Part shown: positions 2,774 to 51,488 of the stretch, one piece after another
Layout: each line of letters starts with the position of its first letter
Position numbering within the stretch: the first letter of the stretch is position 1
Source: Streptomyces sp. NBC_00775
Lineage (GTDB): Bacteria; Actinomycetota; Actinomycetes; Streptomycetales; Streptomycetaceae
NCBI RefSeq assembly: GCF_036347135.1
Contig: NZ_CP108938.1
Span: 8,122,001 to 8,186,000, forward strand
Direction: 5' to 3'
Length of the DNA stretch: 64,000 nucleotides
Made by a program: the position numbers and the translations under genes
Notes under the pieces: model-generated
The model's input: only the letters and a program-made list of their open reading frames with translations
Databases searched by the model: none
What the model was told of the DNA's origin: nothing

Positions 2774-3358
2774 TCAGGACCGGGAGCCGGAGCCGGAACC
2801 GGACCCGGACCCGCCGTGACCACGCTCCTGGCCGGAGGCGCCGGAGGCGCCGGAGGCGCCCGAGAAGCCAGGGGTGCCGGCGGCAAGCCCCCGCAAGCGC
2901 TCCAGCTCGCGCCGGTCCCGCTTGGTCGGGCGCCCCGCCCCCCGGTCACGGATGCCCGCGGGAGCGACGGCCTCGCGCGGCGGAGGCGGCGGACTGTTGT
3001 CGACGTAGCACTCGACGGCGACCGGCGCCCCGACCCGCTTGCGGATCACGCGCTTCACGACGACGACCCGCTCCCGCCCGTCGTGCCGCAGCCGCACCTC
3101 GTCTCCGACGCGTACGGCATACGCGGGCTTGACGCGCTCGCCGTTCACCCGGACATGCCCGCCCCGGCAGGCGGTGGCGCCCATCGAGCGGGTCTTGACG
3201 AGACGTACGGACCAGATCCAGCTGTCGACCCGGACACTCTCGCCGCGACCCGGACCGGCGGCCTTGGCGGCCTCGGCCGCGCTCACCGTGTCACCGGAGC
3301 CGTGCGCGCCGCCGTTACTCGTGCCCTTCTTGTCCCCGTCAGCACCCTCAGAAGCCAT
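2774..3358 (-). CDS. S4-domain RNA-binding protein (Hsp15/HslR-like)
   Basis: 194 residues. The S4 domain is at about residues 42-105: [17 protein letters not shown], then [20 protein letters not shown] and VGDEVRL, the arrangement of small ribosome-associated S4 proteins such as Hsp15 that bind RNA on stalled 50S subunits. The N-terminal 40 residues are low complexity. The C-terminus has a basic [16 protein letters not shown] helix and then a tail of repeated GASGAS and SGSGSGSGS that is probably disordered. The gene is divergent from the uracil-DNA glycosylase gene and its upstream region carries a 24-bp tandem repeat. Confidence 0.85.
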
Positions 3359-45791: not shown

Positions 45792-45872
45792 CGTCCTCGC
45801 GGGCCCTGCCGGACCTCGGCATATGCGCGCTGTGTTGCAAGACCGACACAAAGCGCGCCCCAGGGTTCGGCA

Positions 45873-45895
45873 CTGTCAGTGGTGCTGCGTAGGGT
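45873..45895 (+). promoter_or_regulatory. RecA-NDp (PafBC-type) promoter of a TerD gene
   Basis: CTGTCAGTG, 8 bases (GTGCTGCG), TAGGGT. One mismatch (first base) from TTGTCRGTG-N8-TANNNT, the same variant as at uvrA. The TerD start is 57 bp downstream of the -10. Confidence 0.78.
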
Positions 45896-45951
45896 TCTGG
45901 TCATCCGCGGACTCCGCGGCAACAGGGGACAGTTCGAGAGGGGAACAGCGC

Positions 45952-46530
45952 GTGACGGTCAACATGACCAAGGGTCAGGCCATCAGTCTGCAGAAGAACG
46001 ACGGGGGCACCCTGACCGCGGTGCGCATGGGGCTCGGCTGGCAGGCCGCCCCCCGGCGCGGCCTGTTCGGCTCGCGCACCCGGGAGATCGACCTCGACGC
46101 CTCCGCCGTGCTGTTCGCGGACAAGCAGCCCGTCGACGTGGTGTTCTTCCGCCACCTCGTCAGCGACGACGGCTCGGTACGGCACACGGGTGACAACCTG
46201 GTCGGCGGCGTGGGCCAGGGCGGCGACGACGAGGCGATCCTCGTCGACCTGCAGCGCCTCCCGGTCCACATCGACCAGATCGTCTTCACCGTGAACTCCT
46301 TCACGGGCCAGACCTTCCAGGAAGTGCAGAACGCGTTCTGCCGTCTGATCGACGAGACCAACGGCCAGGAGCTGGCGCGCTACACGCTGGACGGTGGGGG
46401 CAACTACACCGCCCAGATCATGGCGAAGGTGCACCGCGCGGGCACGGGCTGGCAGATGACCGCCCTCGGCACGCCGGCCAACGGCCGCACGTTCCAGGAC
46501 CTGATGCCCGCGATCCTGCCGCATCTGTAG
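45952..46530 (+). CDS. TerD-family calcium-binding stress protein
   Basis: 192 residues from GTG with GAGAGGGG upstream. TerD domain: MTKGQAISLQKNDGGTLTAV, IDLDASAVLFADKQPVDVVF, HTGDNLVGGVGQGGDDEAIL and VNSFTGQTFQEVQNAF, with the paired acidic loops GDN and GDDE that bind Ca2+ in TerD structures. Cytosolic. Linked to tellurite resistance and general stress in enterobacteria, and to development and Ca2+ sensing in Streptomyces. Forms a probable operon with the next, larger TerD protein. Confidence 0.92.
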   Translation: MTVNMTKGQAISLQKNDGGTLTAVRMGLGWQAAPRRGLFGSRTREIDLDASAVLFADKQPVDVVFFRHLVSDDGSVRHTGDNLVGGVGQGGDDEAILVDLQRLPVHIDQIVFTVNSFTGQTFQEVQNAFCRLIDETNGQELARYTLDGGGNYTAQIMAKVHRAGTGWQMTALGTPANGRTFQDLMPAILPHL

Positions 46531-46575: not shown

Positions 46576-48597
46576 ATGACGGCCGAGCTGGTCCGGGGGC
46601 AGAACCATCCGCTCTCCCAGGTCCGTCTTGAGGTCCGTGTTTCGGCCGGCAAGCCGATCGTGGCCGGGGCCACGCTCAGCGATGAGCAGGGCAAGGTCCG
46701 CGGCGTCGAGTGGGTGGCCCACCCGGGCGCGCCCACCCTGCCCGGACTCGAGGTCTCCAAGCAGGCGGCGGCCGACCACCGCCTCGCGTTCGATCTGGAC
46801 GCCCTGCCGGAGACCGTGCACCGGGTCAGTGTGCTGCTCGCGCTGCCGTCCGGGGTCGGGAGCCCGGTCCGGTTCGGCTCCGTCGCCGCCCCCTTCATCG
46901 CGGTCACCGGCCTCGACGGCTCCGAGGTCGCCAGCTACACCATCACAGGGCTGGACGCCGAGTCGGCCGTCGTCGCCCTGGAGCTCTACCGCAGGCAGGG
47001 CGCCTGGAAGGTCCGCGCGGTCGGCCAGGGGTACGCGGGTGGTCTCGCCGAACTCCTCACCGACCAGGGCCTGCCCGAGGCCCAGCAACTCGCGGGCAGC
47101 ATCAACGAGGCGGTGGCCCAGGGCCTGGCCCGCTCGGTGGCCGCACCCCCGCCGCGCACGCCCGACGGGGACCGCTCACGACAGGCGGCCACCTCGGCGC
47201 CGGGACCGGACCAGCCCTACGGCGGACCACAGGGCGCCCCGGGGGCCGTACCGCCGCAGCAGTCCCCGTACGACGTGCCGAGTCCGCAAGGGGCCACAGC
47301 GCCGCAGACCGGCTACCCGGGCGGCTCCGCGCAGCCCGATCCCTCGGCCGTCACCCAGCCGTCCACTCCCGCCGGTGGCGGGATCGACTACAGCCATCCC
47401 GGCCGGCAGACCGGGGCCCCGCCCCCGCCCCCGCCGACCGCACCACCCGCTCAGCCCGGGCAGCCCGCCCAGCCCGTCGCGGGCGACGCGACCGGCTGGT
47501 CCATGGAGGAACGGCTCTACAACCAGGTGTGGGGCATGTTCGAGGACCTGGCCCGCACCACCGCCGCGTACCGCAGCGCCGTCGACTTCGCCGACTCGCG
47601 GATGGAGCAGGAGCTCGACAAGGTCCTGTCCGACCCACGCAGCAGGATCGGCGGACAGGGCGACGCCGCACGCGATGCGGCCCGGGCCAAGCACGCCGAT
47701 CTGGTCGACCAGGCCCGCGCGGCCCTCGACCGGGACCTCGCACAGCTCACCGCCGAGGCCGAGGTGGTCGAGCCCGCGCTGCCCCCGGCGTTCGCACGCT
47801 GGGACAACCCGGTCTGGCACGGCTACCGGGTGCCGATGGAGATCCCCATGGCGCTGCGCCTGGGCGACCTCTGTCTGCCCGAGAGCGAGGGCCTGAGCAT
47901 CCCGATGCTGGTCCGGCTGCCGCTGGAGCGCGGCCTGTGGATCGACAGCGGGCGGGCCACCCTCGACGATTCACTCGCTGACTCCGACGAGCTGCGCCGC
48001 CTCGCCATGGACACGGCGGTGGCGCATGCCGCACGGCTGCTCGCCGTCTATCCCGCGGGCGAGTTCATGGTGCACGTCATCGACCCGGCCGGCTCAGGAG
48101 CCTCGTCCCTCGTGCCACTGGTGCAGTCCGGAGCGCTCGACGGCGCGCCCGCGGCCGGTGCCACGGGTGTGGCCGACGTCCTGGACAGACTCACCCAGCG
48201 CGTCGACCTGGTACAGATGGCGGTGCGCGGCGGAGCGGCCGACTCGCTTCCACCGGGCTTCGACACCGCCGAGCAACTGCTGATCGTCAACGACTTTCCG
48301 CACGGCTTCGACGACCGCGCTGTGACCCAGCTGCGCTATCTCGCGGACGAGGGGCCGGCCGTCGGCGTCCATCTGATGATGGTGGCCGACCGGGAGGACG
48401 CCTCCGCCTACGGACCGCTGCTCGACCCGCTGTGGCGCTCGCTGCTGCGCATCACCCCGGTGCCCGACGACCACCTCGCCGACCCATGGGTCGGGCATGC
48501 CTGGACGTTTGAGCCCGCGCTCGTTCCGCCGGGCAGCCAGGTGCTCCAGCAGGTGCTCGCACAGGTGGCGGCGGCCCGTCGTCCCTGGAATCGCTGA
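46576..48597 (+). CDS. TerD-domain protein fused to an FtsK-like domain without a P-loop
   Basis: 673 residues from ATG (AGGGGGACAAGG upstream). N-terminal TerD-like domain, residues 1-190. A Pro/Gln/Gly linker (195-310) separates it from a helical part (315-400: MEERLYNQVWGMFEDLARTT). The C-terminal 260 residues recall the FtsK/SpoIIIE ATPase core in layout: IPMLVRLPLERGLWIDSGRA stands where Walker A would be, FMVHVIDPAGSGASSLVPLV follows, and LLIVNDFPHGF replaces Walker B, then GVHLMMVADRED. Catalytic residues of an ATPase are missing, so it is probably a scaffold or regulator. TerD fused in this way is an actinobacterial form. Confidence 0.75.
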   Translation: MTAELVRGQNHPLSQVRLEVRVSAGKPIVAGATLSDEQGKVRGVEWVAHPGAPTLPGLEVSKQAAADHRLAFDLDALPETVHRVSVLLALPSGVGSPVRFGSVAAPFIAVTGLDGSEVASYTITGLDAESAVVALELYRRQGAWKVRAVGQGYAGGLAELLTDQGLPEAQQLAGSINEAVAQGLARSVAAPPPRTPDGDRSRQAATSAPGPDQPYGGPQGAPGAVPPQQSPYDVPSPQGATAPQTGYPGGSAQPDPSAVTQPSTPAGGGIDYSHPGRQTGAPPPPPPTAPPAQPGQPAQPVAGDATGWSMEERLYNQVWGMFEDLARTTAAYRSAVDFADSRMEQELDKVLSDPRSRIGGQGDAARDAARAKHADLVDQARAALDRDLAQLTAEAEVVEPALPPAFARWDNPVWHGYRVPMEIPMALRLGDLCLPESEGLSIPMLVRLPLERGLWIDSGRATLDDSLADSDELRRLAMDTAVAHAARLLAVYPAGEFMVHVIDPAGSGASSLVPLVQSGALDGAPAAGATGVADVLDRLTQRVDLVQMAVRGGAADSLPPGFDTAEQLLIVNDFPHGFDDRAVTQLRYLADEGPAVGVHLMMVADREDASAYGPLLDPLWRSLLRITPVPDDHLADPWVGHAWTFEPALVPPGSQVLQQVLAQVAAARRPWNR

Positions 48598-48718
48598 CCT
48601 CGGCAAGGTCCTGTCAGGGGCTTGCGTCAAGCATCAGTAAAGCGCTCTGACCAGGGGATTTGGTTCTTCTTTTACCGACCGCTTTACCTTTCCTTGGTGG
48701 TTCGGGTACTCTTTTCCA

Positions 48719-48826
48719 CACGGAGGGGAGTACTCCCTACCTGCTGCGGCGTACCCGTCAATACGGATCAGGCCAGATCCCGGGGCGTCGGCCCGTGAAT
48801 GTCACGGGTGGAAGAGACCTCCGGTA
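48719..48826 (+). ncRNA. yybP-ykoY (manganese) riboswitch upstream of terC
   Basis: The conserved core is present: CGGAGGGGAGTA on the 5' side and GAAGAGACCTCCGG on the 3' side, matching the yybP-ykoY GGGGAGUA and GAGACCUC elements. P1 is CGGAGG (48721-48726) with CCTCCG (48818-48823). Between lie two hairpin arms (about 48747-48765 and 48790-48808). CCTCCGG (48818-48824) is also the exact complement of CCGGAGG (48859-48865), the terC SD. P1 formation with Mn2+ would free the SD and switch translation ON, as known for E. coli alx (also a TerC-family gene). Confidence 0.8.
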
Positions 48827-48869
48827 GCGACGACGCTGAAATCTGCCGTTACGTACTGCCGGAGGCGCA

Positions 48870-49859
48870 GTGGATGTTTCCGTGACCCTTTGGGTCCTGA
48901 CAATCGTGGGCCTCGCCGCCCTGATCGCGGTCGACTTCTTCATCGGCCGCAAGCCGCACGACGTATCCATCAAGGAAGCCGGAATCTGGACCATCGTCTG
49001 GATCGCCCTGGCCGGACTGTTCGGACTCGGACTGCTCATGTTCTCCGGCGGTGAGCCCGCCGGAGAGTTCTTCGCTGGCTTCATCACCGAGAAGTCCCTG
49101 AGCGTCGACAACCTCTTCGTCTTCGTCCTGATCATGGCGAAGTTCGCGGTGCCCTCGCAGTACCAGCAGCGGGTGCTCCTCGTCGGTGTGCTCATAGCCC
49201 TCGTCCTGCGCACGATATTCATCGCCGCGGGTGCCGCGATCATCGCGAGCTTCGCGTGGGTCTTCTACATCTTCGGCGCGTTCCTCATCTACACCGCCTG
49301 GAAGCTGATCCAGGAGGCCCGTGCCGACGACGAGGACGAGGAGTTCGAGGAGAACAAGCTGCTCAAGGCCGCCGAGCGACGCTTCGGCGTGGCCGACCGG
49401 TACCACGGCACCAGGCTGTGGATCGAGCAGAACGGCAAGCGCGTCATGACGCCGATGCTGGTCGTGATGCTGGCGATCGGCACCACCGACGTGCTCTTCG
49501 CGCTCGACTCGATCCCCGCGATCTTCGGTCTGACCCAGGACCCCTACATCGTCTTCACGGCCAACGCGTTCGCGCTGATGGGTCTGCGACAGCTGTACTT
49601 CCTCATCGGCGGCCTGCTCAGGAAGCTGGTCCACCTCAGCTACGGCCTGTCGGTCATCCTCGGCTTCATCGGCATCAAGCTGGTGCTGCACGCGCTGCAC
49701 GAGTCCGGCGTGCATGTCCCCGAGATCTCCATCCCGGTCTCGCTCGGCGTGATCTGCGGCGTCCTGGTGGTCACCACGATCACCAGCCTGGTCGCCTCCA
49801 AGAAGCAGGCGGCGCTCGAAGAGGTCAAGAGCGCTCCGAAGGACAGCGTCGACGTCTGA
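48870..49859 (+). CDS. TerC-family membrane protein (manganese exporter-like)
   Basis: 329 residues from GTG. Nine membrane segments in the TerC/Alx pattern: LWVLTIVGLAALIAVDFFIG, the conserved ITEKSLSVDNLFVFVLIMAK (acidic residue in membrane helix near 82), and the second copy IGTTDVLFALDSIPAIFGLT. A cytoplasmic loop of about 40 acidic residues (RADDEDEEFEENKLL) lies between repeats. Members move Mn2+, and this is supported here by the upstream riboswitch. SD is GGAGG 4 bp before the start, within reach of the riboswitch P1 strand. A strong terminator follows. Confidence 0.93.
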   Translation: MDVSVTLWVLTIVGLAALIAVDFFIGRKPHDVSIKEAGIWTIVWIALAGLFGLGLLMFSGGEPAGEFFAGFITEKSLSVDNLFVFVLIMAKFAVPSQYQQRVLLVGVLIALVLRTIFIAAGAAIIASFAWVFYIFGAFLIYTAWKLIQEARADDEDEEFEENKLLKAAERRFGVADRYHGTRLWIEQNGKRVMTPMLVVMLAIGTTDVLFALDSIPAIFGLTQDPYIVFTANAFALMGLRQLYFLIGGLLRKLVHLSYGLSVILGFIGIKLVLHALHESGVHVPEISIPVSLGVICGVLVVTTITSLVASKKQAALEEVKSAPKDSVDV

Positions 49860-50333: not shown

Positions 50334-50364
50334 CGGGCCCCGCGCCACCGGAGTGCGGGGCCCG
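50334..50364 (+). terminator. Hairpin terminator
   Basis: CGGGCCCCGC / GCGGGGCCCG, 10-bp perfect stem with an 11-base loop, 43 bp after the preceding stop and just before the antiporter gene. Confidence 0.8.
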
Positions 50365-50387
50365 TGTACGCCTGCGACGATCGCAGC

Positions 50388-51488
50388 ATGATCGTTCGGC
50401 TCCGGTCACTCGTGACGCAGTGGACGTTCGTCGTACCCGTGGTCGCGGTGGTCCTGCTGGCCTTCACCTGGGGACGTGACCTGCCGGGTGCGGTCGTCGT
50501 GCTGGTGACCCTGGTCCTTGCCGGGGCCGTGCTGGCCGCCGTCCATCACGCCGAGGTCGTCGCGCACCGGGTCGGCGAACCCTTCGGCTCACTCGTCCTC
50601 GCCGTCGCCGTCACGATCATCGAGGTCGCGCTGATCGTCACCCTGATGGCGGACGGCGGCGACAAGAGCTCGACCCTGGCCCGCGACACGGTGTTCGCAG
50701 CCGTGATGATCACGTGCAACGGCATCGTCGGGCTGTGTCTGCTGGTCGCCTCACTGCGTCACGGGCTGGCCGTCTTCAACGCGGAGGGAACCGGCGCCGC
50801 CCTCGCGACCGTCGCGACGCTCGCCACGCTCAGCCTGGTCTTCCCGACGTTCACCACCAGCAAGCCGGGCCCGGAGTTCTCCACCGCCCAGCTCACCTTC
50901 GCCGCGCTCGCCTCGCTGGTCCTGTACGGCCTCTTCGTGACGACCCAGACCGTGCGGCACCGGGACTACTTCCTGCCGATCACCAGGCAGGGCGAGGTGA
51001 TCGACGCGGACGACCACGCCGGCGCCCCGTCCGGCCGCGAAGCCGGGATCAGCCTGGGGCTGCTCGGCCTGGCTCTCGTCGGAGTGGTCGGCCTCGCCAA
51101 GGGCGTGTCGCCCACCATCGAGTCCGGGGTCGAGGCGGCCGGCATGCCGCACTCCGTGGTCGGTGTGATCATCGCGCTGCTCGTCCTCCTTCCCGAGACC
51201 ATCGCCGCGCTGCGGTCGGCCCGCCGTGACCGGGTGCAGACCAGCCTGAACCTCGCCCTCGGCTCCGCGATGGCCAGCATCGGACTGACGATCCCCGCTG
51301 TCGCCCTGGCGACCATCTGGCTCTCCGGGCCACTCGTCCTCGGCCTCGGCTCCACCCAGATGGTGCTGCTCGCGCTGACCGTGGTGGTGAGCTCCCTGAC
51401 GGTGGTTCCCGGGCGCGCGACCCCCCTCCAGGGAGGCGTCCACCTGGTTATCTTCGCGGCCTATCTGGAACTGGCGATCAACCCTTGA
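50388..51488 (+). CDS. Calcium/cation:proton antiporter (ChaA/CaCA-like)
   Basis: 366 residues. Two homologous halves of membrane helices. Conserved acidic motifs typical of the CaCA superfamily: VAVTIIEVALIVTLMADGG (Glu near 72) in the first half and IIALLVLLPETIAALRSARR (Glu near 269) in the second, followed by LNLALGSAMASIGLTIPAVA. A cytoplasmic linker HRDYFLPITRQGEVIDADDH lies between the halves. Exchanges Ca2+ or Na+/K+ for H+. No SD is obvious before the ATG and the start may be leaderless. Convergent with the next MFS gene. Confidence 0.9.
   Translation: MIVRLRSLVTQWTFVVPVVAVVLLAFTWGRDLPGAVVVLVTLVLAGAVLAAVHHAEVVAHRVGEPFGSLVLAVAVTIIEVALIVTLMADGGDKSSTLARDTVFAAVMITCNGIVGLCLLVASLRHGLAVFNAEGTGAALATVATLATLSLVFPTFTTSKPGPEFSTAQLTFAALASLVLYGLFVTTQTVRHRDYFLPITRQGEVIDADDHAGAPSGREAGISLGLLGLALVGVVGLAKGVSPTIESGVEAAGMPHSVVGVIIALLVLLPETIAALRSARRDRVQTSLNLALGSAMASIGLTIPAVALATIWLSGPLVLGLGSTQMVLLALTVVVSSLTVVPGRATPLQGGVHLVIFAAYLELAINP

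Follow-up and report, generated by a model that had tools for sequence, protein, structure and literature searches.

The terC locus of Streptomyces sp. NBC_00775 raises the question of whether the bases in front of the gene form a switch that governs its expression and, if so, which signal this switch would respond to and at which level it would act. The locus lies within a window of 64,000 nt, i.e., the whole stretch of DNA that was analysed, and all coordinates are positions within this window; the genome comprises 11.1 Mb on one contig. Upstream of terC are uvrB and two TerD genes (45823-46530 and 46576-48597, by Pfam), and downstream are a small gene that matched no Pfam family and a gene for a sodium/calcium exchanger (50364-51488). 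No riboswitch of its own was found for this exchanger gene near terC; elsewhere the gene family follows one. A gap of 272 bases separates terC from the second TerD gene, and the last part of this gap (48719-48869) has the appearance of a leader. Very probably, terC has its 5' leader at 48719-48872, and this leader would form a compact, P2-less translational ON riboswitch of the yybP-ykoY kind that senses a divalent metal, most likely Mn2+. An earlier note had held that the sequence fixes the mechanism, which was an overstatement: the anatomy, the conservation, the promoter-like boxes and the covariation of the shared strand can be read from the leaders, and from there we infer the start site, the ligand, the Mn2+ ON direction, the translational rather than transcriptional level and the kinetic choice during transcription. 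The kind of mechanism is known; what is new is the P2-less variant and its breadth. Streptomyces would thereby gain a testable Mn2+ control of terC.

Anatomy and conservation of the terC leader

The features of the leader are compiled in Table 1. The earlier note had described CCTCCGG (48818-48824) as complementary both to the left strand of P1 and to the SD of terC, CCGGAGG (48859-48865), and direct reading of the sequence verified that these coordinates are exact. The anti-SD helix turned out to be longer than the note had stated, with 10 bp including one G-U pair. Within P1.2 the window has a C-A mismatch adjoining L1. A core pattern, GGGGAGTA-N10-40-GTCANNACG-N20-50-GAGACC, was found once in the window compared with 0 of 100 shuffles, and this was its single match across the 11.1-Mb genome, in which the reversed control pattern had none. 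Together with the remaining leader, the L1 pattern of Table 1 was present in 79 of 80 terC loci (the best 80 of 529 relatives), the exception being L020.

Table 1. Features of the terC locus and its leader in window coordinates.
Feature	Positions	Strand	Description and basis
Promoter-like boxes	48683..48712	+	TTTACC 48683-48688, 18 nt, TACTCT 48707-48712; 8 nt before P1
P1 5' strand CGGAGG	48721..48726	+	pairs with 48818-48823; sequence and pair counts
L1 5' strand GGAGUA	48727..48732	+	79/80 Streptomyces loci, searched as CGGAGG[GA]?GAGTA
P1.2 5' strand CUCC	48733..48736	+	pairs with 48810-48813; class-leader covariation
P3 5' strand CGGCGU-A-CCCG	48747..48757	+	partner 48781-48790; pairing in 97.4% of cells, with a double change in one pair
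L3 bulge UCAAUAC	48758..48764	+	presumed Mn-sensing A at 48760; GTCA in 43/43
P3.2 hairpin GGAUC-AGGCCA-GAUCC	48765..48780	+	compensatory U-A to C-G in 9/43, G-C to A-U in 1/43
P4 hairpin	48792..48808	+	length varies between relatives
L1 3' strand GAGA	48814..48817	+	conserved in alignment and class leaders; AAGA in 4/7 unparsed class loci
Shared strand	48818..48827	+	P1 3' side 48818-48823, anti-SD 48818-48827; covariation
Small hairpin UAGCG-ACGA-CGCUG	48825..48838	+	may form when P1 is in place; sequence
SD region CUGCCGGAGG	48856..48865	+	partner 48818-48827 in OFF fold
terC	48870..49859	+	329 aa, GTG start at 48870; Pfam PF03741, E=1.3e-52

The promoter-like boxes, written as TTTAC[CT]-17/18-TANNNT, preceded P1 in all 80 Streptomyces leaders (the window and 79 loci), and the second box ended 8 nt 5' of P1 in 76 of the 80. 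A stricter consensus scan for a TTGACA/TATAAT promoter found none. The boxes suggest that transcription starts at P1, and with such a predicted start no upstream sequence would compete with the aptamer.

The covariance model R1 was built from the window and 42 loci with less than 90% identity. In the alignment of these 43 leaders, 98.4% of the cells were paired, and four of 27 pairs had changed on both sides. The covariation score of the aptamer was reached by none of 500 shuffles and the count of double-changed pairs by one, and the number of pair types was reached by 439 of the 500. None of the three P4 pairs that were counted had changed on both sides; the support for P4 is its length variation.

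Beyond Streptomyces, a class set was assembled from 117 regions around R1 or RF00080 matches, selected from among those listed and with at least one locus per genome, and from four further loci. Parsing for GGAGTA, GTC[AG], G[AG]GACC and at least four of five P1 pairs yielded 115 elements. The parse thus accounts in part for the conserved L1 and the paired P1 of these elements; it made no demand on the SD side. Seven loci were not parsed, and GGAGTA and GTCA were present in all seven. A strict TerC motif, which found TerC behind only 30 of the 115 elements, was replaced by a profile of 11 TerC proteins, and with it TerC was found behind 102. In these 102 terC leaders GTCA was invariant (102/102, GTC[AG] having been required by the parse), and it followed L1 at a spacing of 17-22 nt. 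This spacing is too short for P1.2, P2 and P3 together, and therefore the leaders lack P2 and with it a four-way junction; inspection of the window leader likewise revealed no P2.

RNAalifold on alignment A1 ranked a local GGA/UCC hairpin, located within L1, above P1.2. Among the 102 class leaders, P1.2 occurred as UCCC/GGGA (38), UUCC/GGAA (28), CUCC/GGAG (8) and CUUC/GAAG (8), and positions 1-3 exceeded all of 5,000 permutations, with position 4 being uninformative. The class leaders thus favour the putative P1.2. The features of a yybP-ykoY aptamer found in the leader are L1 with GGAGUA/(A/G)AGA beside P1, the L3 adenosine, P1.2, P3 and P4. The earlier claim of a yybP-ykoY-like core before terC, with a 3' P1 strand common to aptamer and SD, gained support from covariation across actinobacteria.

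A probable compact yybP-ykoY variant in the blind spot of the Rfam model

A search with Infernal and the Rfam model, which had been proposed as a check, did not recover the element: RF00080 (Rfam Manganese, gathering cut-off 45 bits) did not match the window at gathering and had no match at E<=10 in 48590-48900, an outcome that the earlier note had named as refuting its claim. Likewise, Rfam at gathering gave no match in a sample of 14 terC loci from the set of 80, namely L020 and 13 loci that carry the element. Across 121 Streptomyces genomes RF00080 reached E<=1 in 21 and exceeded its cut-off in none. R1 gave the window element a score of 124 bits; it had matches in 136 of 150 Streptomyces genomes and in 214 of 394 genomes of the actinomycete class, representing 72 of 137 genera (36 of the 214 were Streptomyces among the matches listed); these genome counts are lower bounds, because nine candidates per genome were scored with R1 and six with RF00080, under strict filters. 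RF00080 reached E<=0.001 in six of the same 394 genomes and its cut-off in none, and the six places coincided with no R1 place, three of them lying in genomes without an R1 match. The missing RF00080 match is thus a blind spot of the Rfam model, and a form that is widespread in actinobacteria escapes the curated family. For the window genome, a second R1-type copy was rejected, as the next match had 22.3 bits (E=2.4) and lacked the core motif.

None of the ten best RF00080 matches in Streptomyces preceded terC. Nine lay before a gene starting like GDT1 and one (L083) before a sodium/calcium exchanger gene; the GDT1-like starts were judged by reading the DNA, and Pfam was run on L081 alone. Together with L131, these places appear to represent a second kind of sub-threshold Mn-type riboswitch (L081-L090 and L131, in Streptomyces and one relative), located before GDT1 (PF01169) or a sodium/calcium exchanger (PF01699). 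The copies were missed by the R1 genome searches, yet R1 scored them when they were presented to it (L081 48.9 bits, L083 53.7 bits). Judged by their sequences, they look like the same riboswitch kind with a longer L3. In the window genome no such element was found with RF00080 (E<=0.001) or with R1, which can miss these copies. The GDT1 family is presumably identical with the TMEM165 family, to which mneA belongs.

Comparison with characterized aptamers places the leader close to them. In Lactococcus lactis, L3 contributes U39, C40, the invariant A41, U44 and C45 to the Mn site (PMC9190785), and the Xanthomonas oryzae aptamer has the L1 3' strand GAGACC and a four-way junction (PMC6754395). 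P1.1 has been described as the switch helix (PMC11087558). L1 and L3 of the window leader match the Mn site described for both species, and the leader shares with the RF00080 aptamers the P1 switch helix, L1 GGAGUA/GAGA, P1.2, L3 UCA, P3 and P4, as well as the Mn-transport genes downstream. In contrast to them, it lacks P2, would form a three-way instead of a four-way junction and stays below the Rfam score. Because of this score and the missing P2 it is regarded as a variant, not as a plain member of yybP-ykoY.

Related arrangements have been reported. In Vibrio parahaemolyticus, terC and the TMEM165 family gene mneA both lie behind yybP-ykoY elements (PMC13274385). In E. coli, alx encodes a TerC-family protein (a title cited in PMC13274385), and translation initiation of mntP is described as being turned on by a yybP-ykoY switch that depends on Mn (PMC9603457). 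The leaders of mntP and alx are Mn2+ riboswitches, as is proposed for the terC leader of the window; in the window, the P1 3' strand is itself the putative anti-SD. A further related system is terC of Corynebacterium glutamicum (cg2157), likewise an actinobacterial terC gene with a yybP-ykoY leader, predicted with Rfam and with a 5'-UTR seen by RNA-seq (PMC3890552, Table 2); unlike the window leader, it was found by an older Rfam model (49.13 bits). The actinobacterial groups in the accessible part of a 2013 survey are Corynebacteriaceae and Mycobacteriaceae, and the word Streptomyces is absent from that part (PMC3766115). A search of titles and abstracts in the open-licence literature found no paper on a Mn riboswitch of Streptomyces terC.

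The variant might instead respond to a different divalent metal or to a different kind of signal, e.g., pH. This is improbable, albeit with several points in its favour: such variants are expected by a review (PMC7266159), a pH response is also known from the E. coli mntP and alx leaders (PMC9603457), TerD genes are present in the window as well, and L3 mostly has an A at the position of L. lactis U44, a residue of the Mn site. However, the Mn-sensing A is retained, and such aptamers precede TerC, GDT1 and Na_Ca_ex genes, i.e., families tied to Mn/Ca transport. A bolder and rather doubtful conjecture is that actinomycetes widely carry a distinct yybP-ykoY subclass with a three-way junction, unseen by Rfam, whose altered L3 would confer a metal selectivity or threshold different from that of the crystallised Mn2+ riboswitches.

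One strand for P1 and for the SD

The proposal of a Mn2+-responsive translational switch depends on the strand that P1 and the SD have in common. In Streptomyces, 96.3% of the cells of the anti-SD helix were paired with little variation, and 24 of 500 shuffles reached its covariation score, a weak signal. The class leaders varied more informatively. Among 89 non-identical class terC leaders, the P1 3' strand paired with the SD region at all seven positions in 61; at least six pairs, in a stretch whose end lies 3-18 nt 5' of the start, were present in 78. Unusual anti-SDs were met by equally unusual SD flanks: CCUCGAA by UUCGAGG (L150, L169, L236, L244), CCUUCGG by CCGAAGG (L160, L226), CCUCCAG by CUGGAGG (L161) and CCUCCGA by UCGGAGG (L143), and L245 likewise. 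A matching flank was missing for CCUCCAG in L167 and for CCUCCGA in L178, L190 and L201, and overall the pairing was absent from 10 of the 89 leaders; the ten include three of the four CCUCCGA leaders and one of the two CCUCCAG leaders. When the 22 unusual anti-SDs were redealt among the leaders, the observed pairing of 129 was reached in 0 of 100,000 cases (mean 114.3, maximum 127.5). At positions 7, 8 and 9, outside of P1, 89, 61 and 37 of 94 leaders had Watson-Crick pairs, compared with 75.7, 35.3 and 21.7 after permutation; 0, 0 and 2 of 20,000 permutations reached the observed values, and 0, 0 and 12 did so after thinning to 66 leaders. Both the swap and the permutation tests ignore kinship between leaders. 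Position 10 gave no covariation signal in the permutation test. The strand of the aptamer is thus also the strand that would block the SD, with covariation, as in a translational ON switch.

Closure of an SD commonly brings a coupled effect on the mRNA level. An element that senses Mn2+ might act chiefly on transcription, by a Rho-dependent route or by pausing, with the SD pairing being secondary; P1 is indeed the switch helix of the transcriptional L. lactis riboswitch (PMC11087558). This alternative appears unlikely, as an intrinsic terminator was rejected for lack of any terminator-like site in 48590-48960, in 86 of 89 leaders the P1 3' strand found its best match in a stretch ending 4-15 nt 5' of the start codon, and the covariation reached the SD flank. 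A mere chance match, arising because an SD GGAGG pairs with any P1 strand CCUCC and made partly automatic by the SD-like P1 5' strand itself, is hardly credible and was rejected, because the pairing runs beyond P1 and covaries there and redealing never equalled it.

According to the favoured reading, translational control by Mn2+, transcription would begin at or just 5' of P1, so that the aptamer would be synthesized first. Mn2+ bound between L1 and L3 would lock P1, which would then keep hold of 48818-48823; the SD (48861-48865) would remain unpaired, and the membrane protein TerC, which handles Mn, would be made. Without Mn2+, P1 would open, 48818-48827 would pair with 48856-48865, and the SD would be closed. 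The choice between OFF and ON is assumed to be made by co-transcriptional folding.

Without ligand, the window leader was predicted to be closed, with the anti-SD pairs at 0.96 or above and P1 at 0. Imposing P1 to obtain the aptamer fold cost 16.4 kcal/mol relative to the best fold and 4.5 kcal/mol relative to a closed fold that keeps P3 and P4, and because the closed state is favoured by these energies, Mn2+ binding at equilibrium may not suffice to open it. All of the 80 Streptomyces leaders were predicted to be closed, and forcing P1 raised the mean unpaired fraction of the SD from 0.005 to 0.54. The exposure of the SD increased by more than 0.2 in 77 of the 80 and in 64 of 101 class leaders; the SD became more than 0.5 unpaired in only 46 and 31, respectively, and only 62 of the 101 class leaders were predicted to be closed when P1 was not forced. 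These ensemble predictions fit a default-OFF switch that would be opened during transcription, and they do not amount to a proof.

Leaders that depart from the common form

R1 had no match in 14 Streptomyces genomes, two of which are less than 90% complete. TerC was present in 13 of them, and around these 13 terC genes R1 gave no match at E<=1. Together with L020, the Streptomyces terC leaders L255-L268 have lost the aptamer to varying degrees. By eye, L257 kept the anti-SD platform, i.e., the SD-blocking hairpin, and its aptamer is gone; L258 kept P1-like and P4-like arms and lacks GGAGUA; and little beyond an SD remains in L255, L256, L261 and L264-L266. These grades of decay indicate that the R1 misses are losses and not search failures, and that terC can live without the switch. 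Natural variants, including aptamer-less lineages, are thus available for testing the shared-strand mechanism.

Four of the non-pairing class leaders (L141, L170, L185, L208) have a P1 of CAAGG/CCUUG or CGAGG/CCUCG and a GGAG near the start instead, and they may use another expression platform. A P1 of CAAGG/CCUUG without clear complementarity to the SD was seen in L140, L170, L176, L180, L185 and L208, and TerC was not found downstream in three of these six. In L172 (272-409), the P1 3' strand CCUUGUG is matched by an SD CACAAGG that lies before a gene for a PGPGW membrane protein, not before terC. L155 contains two elements (1643-1750 and 2934-3032) on the same strand, 1.3 kb apart, each with its own terC behind it.
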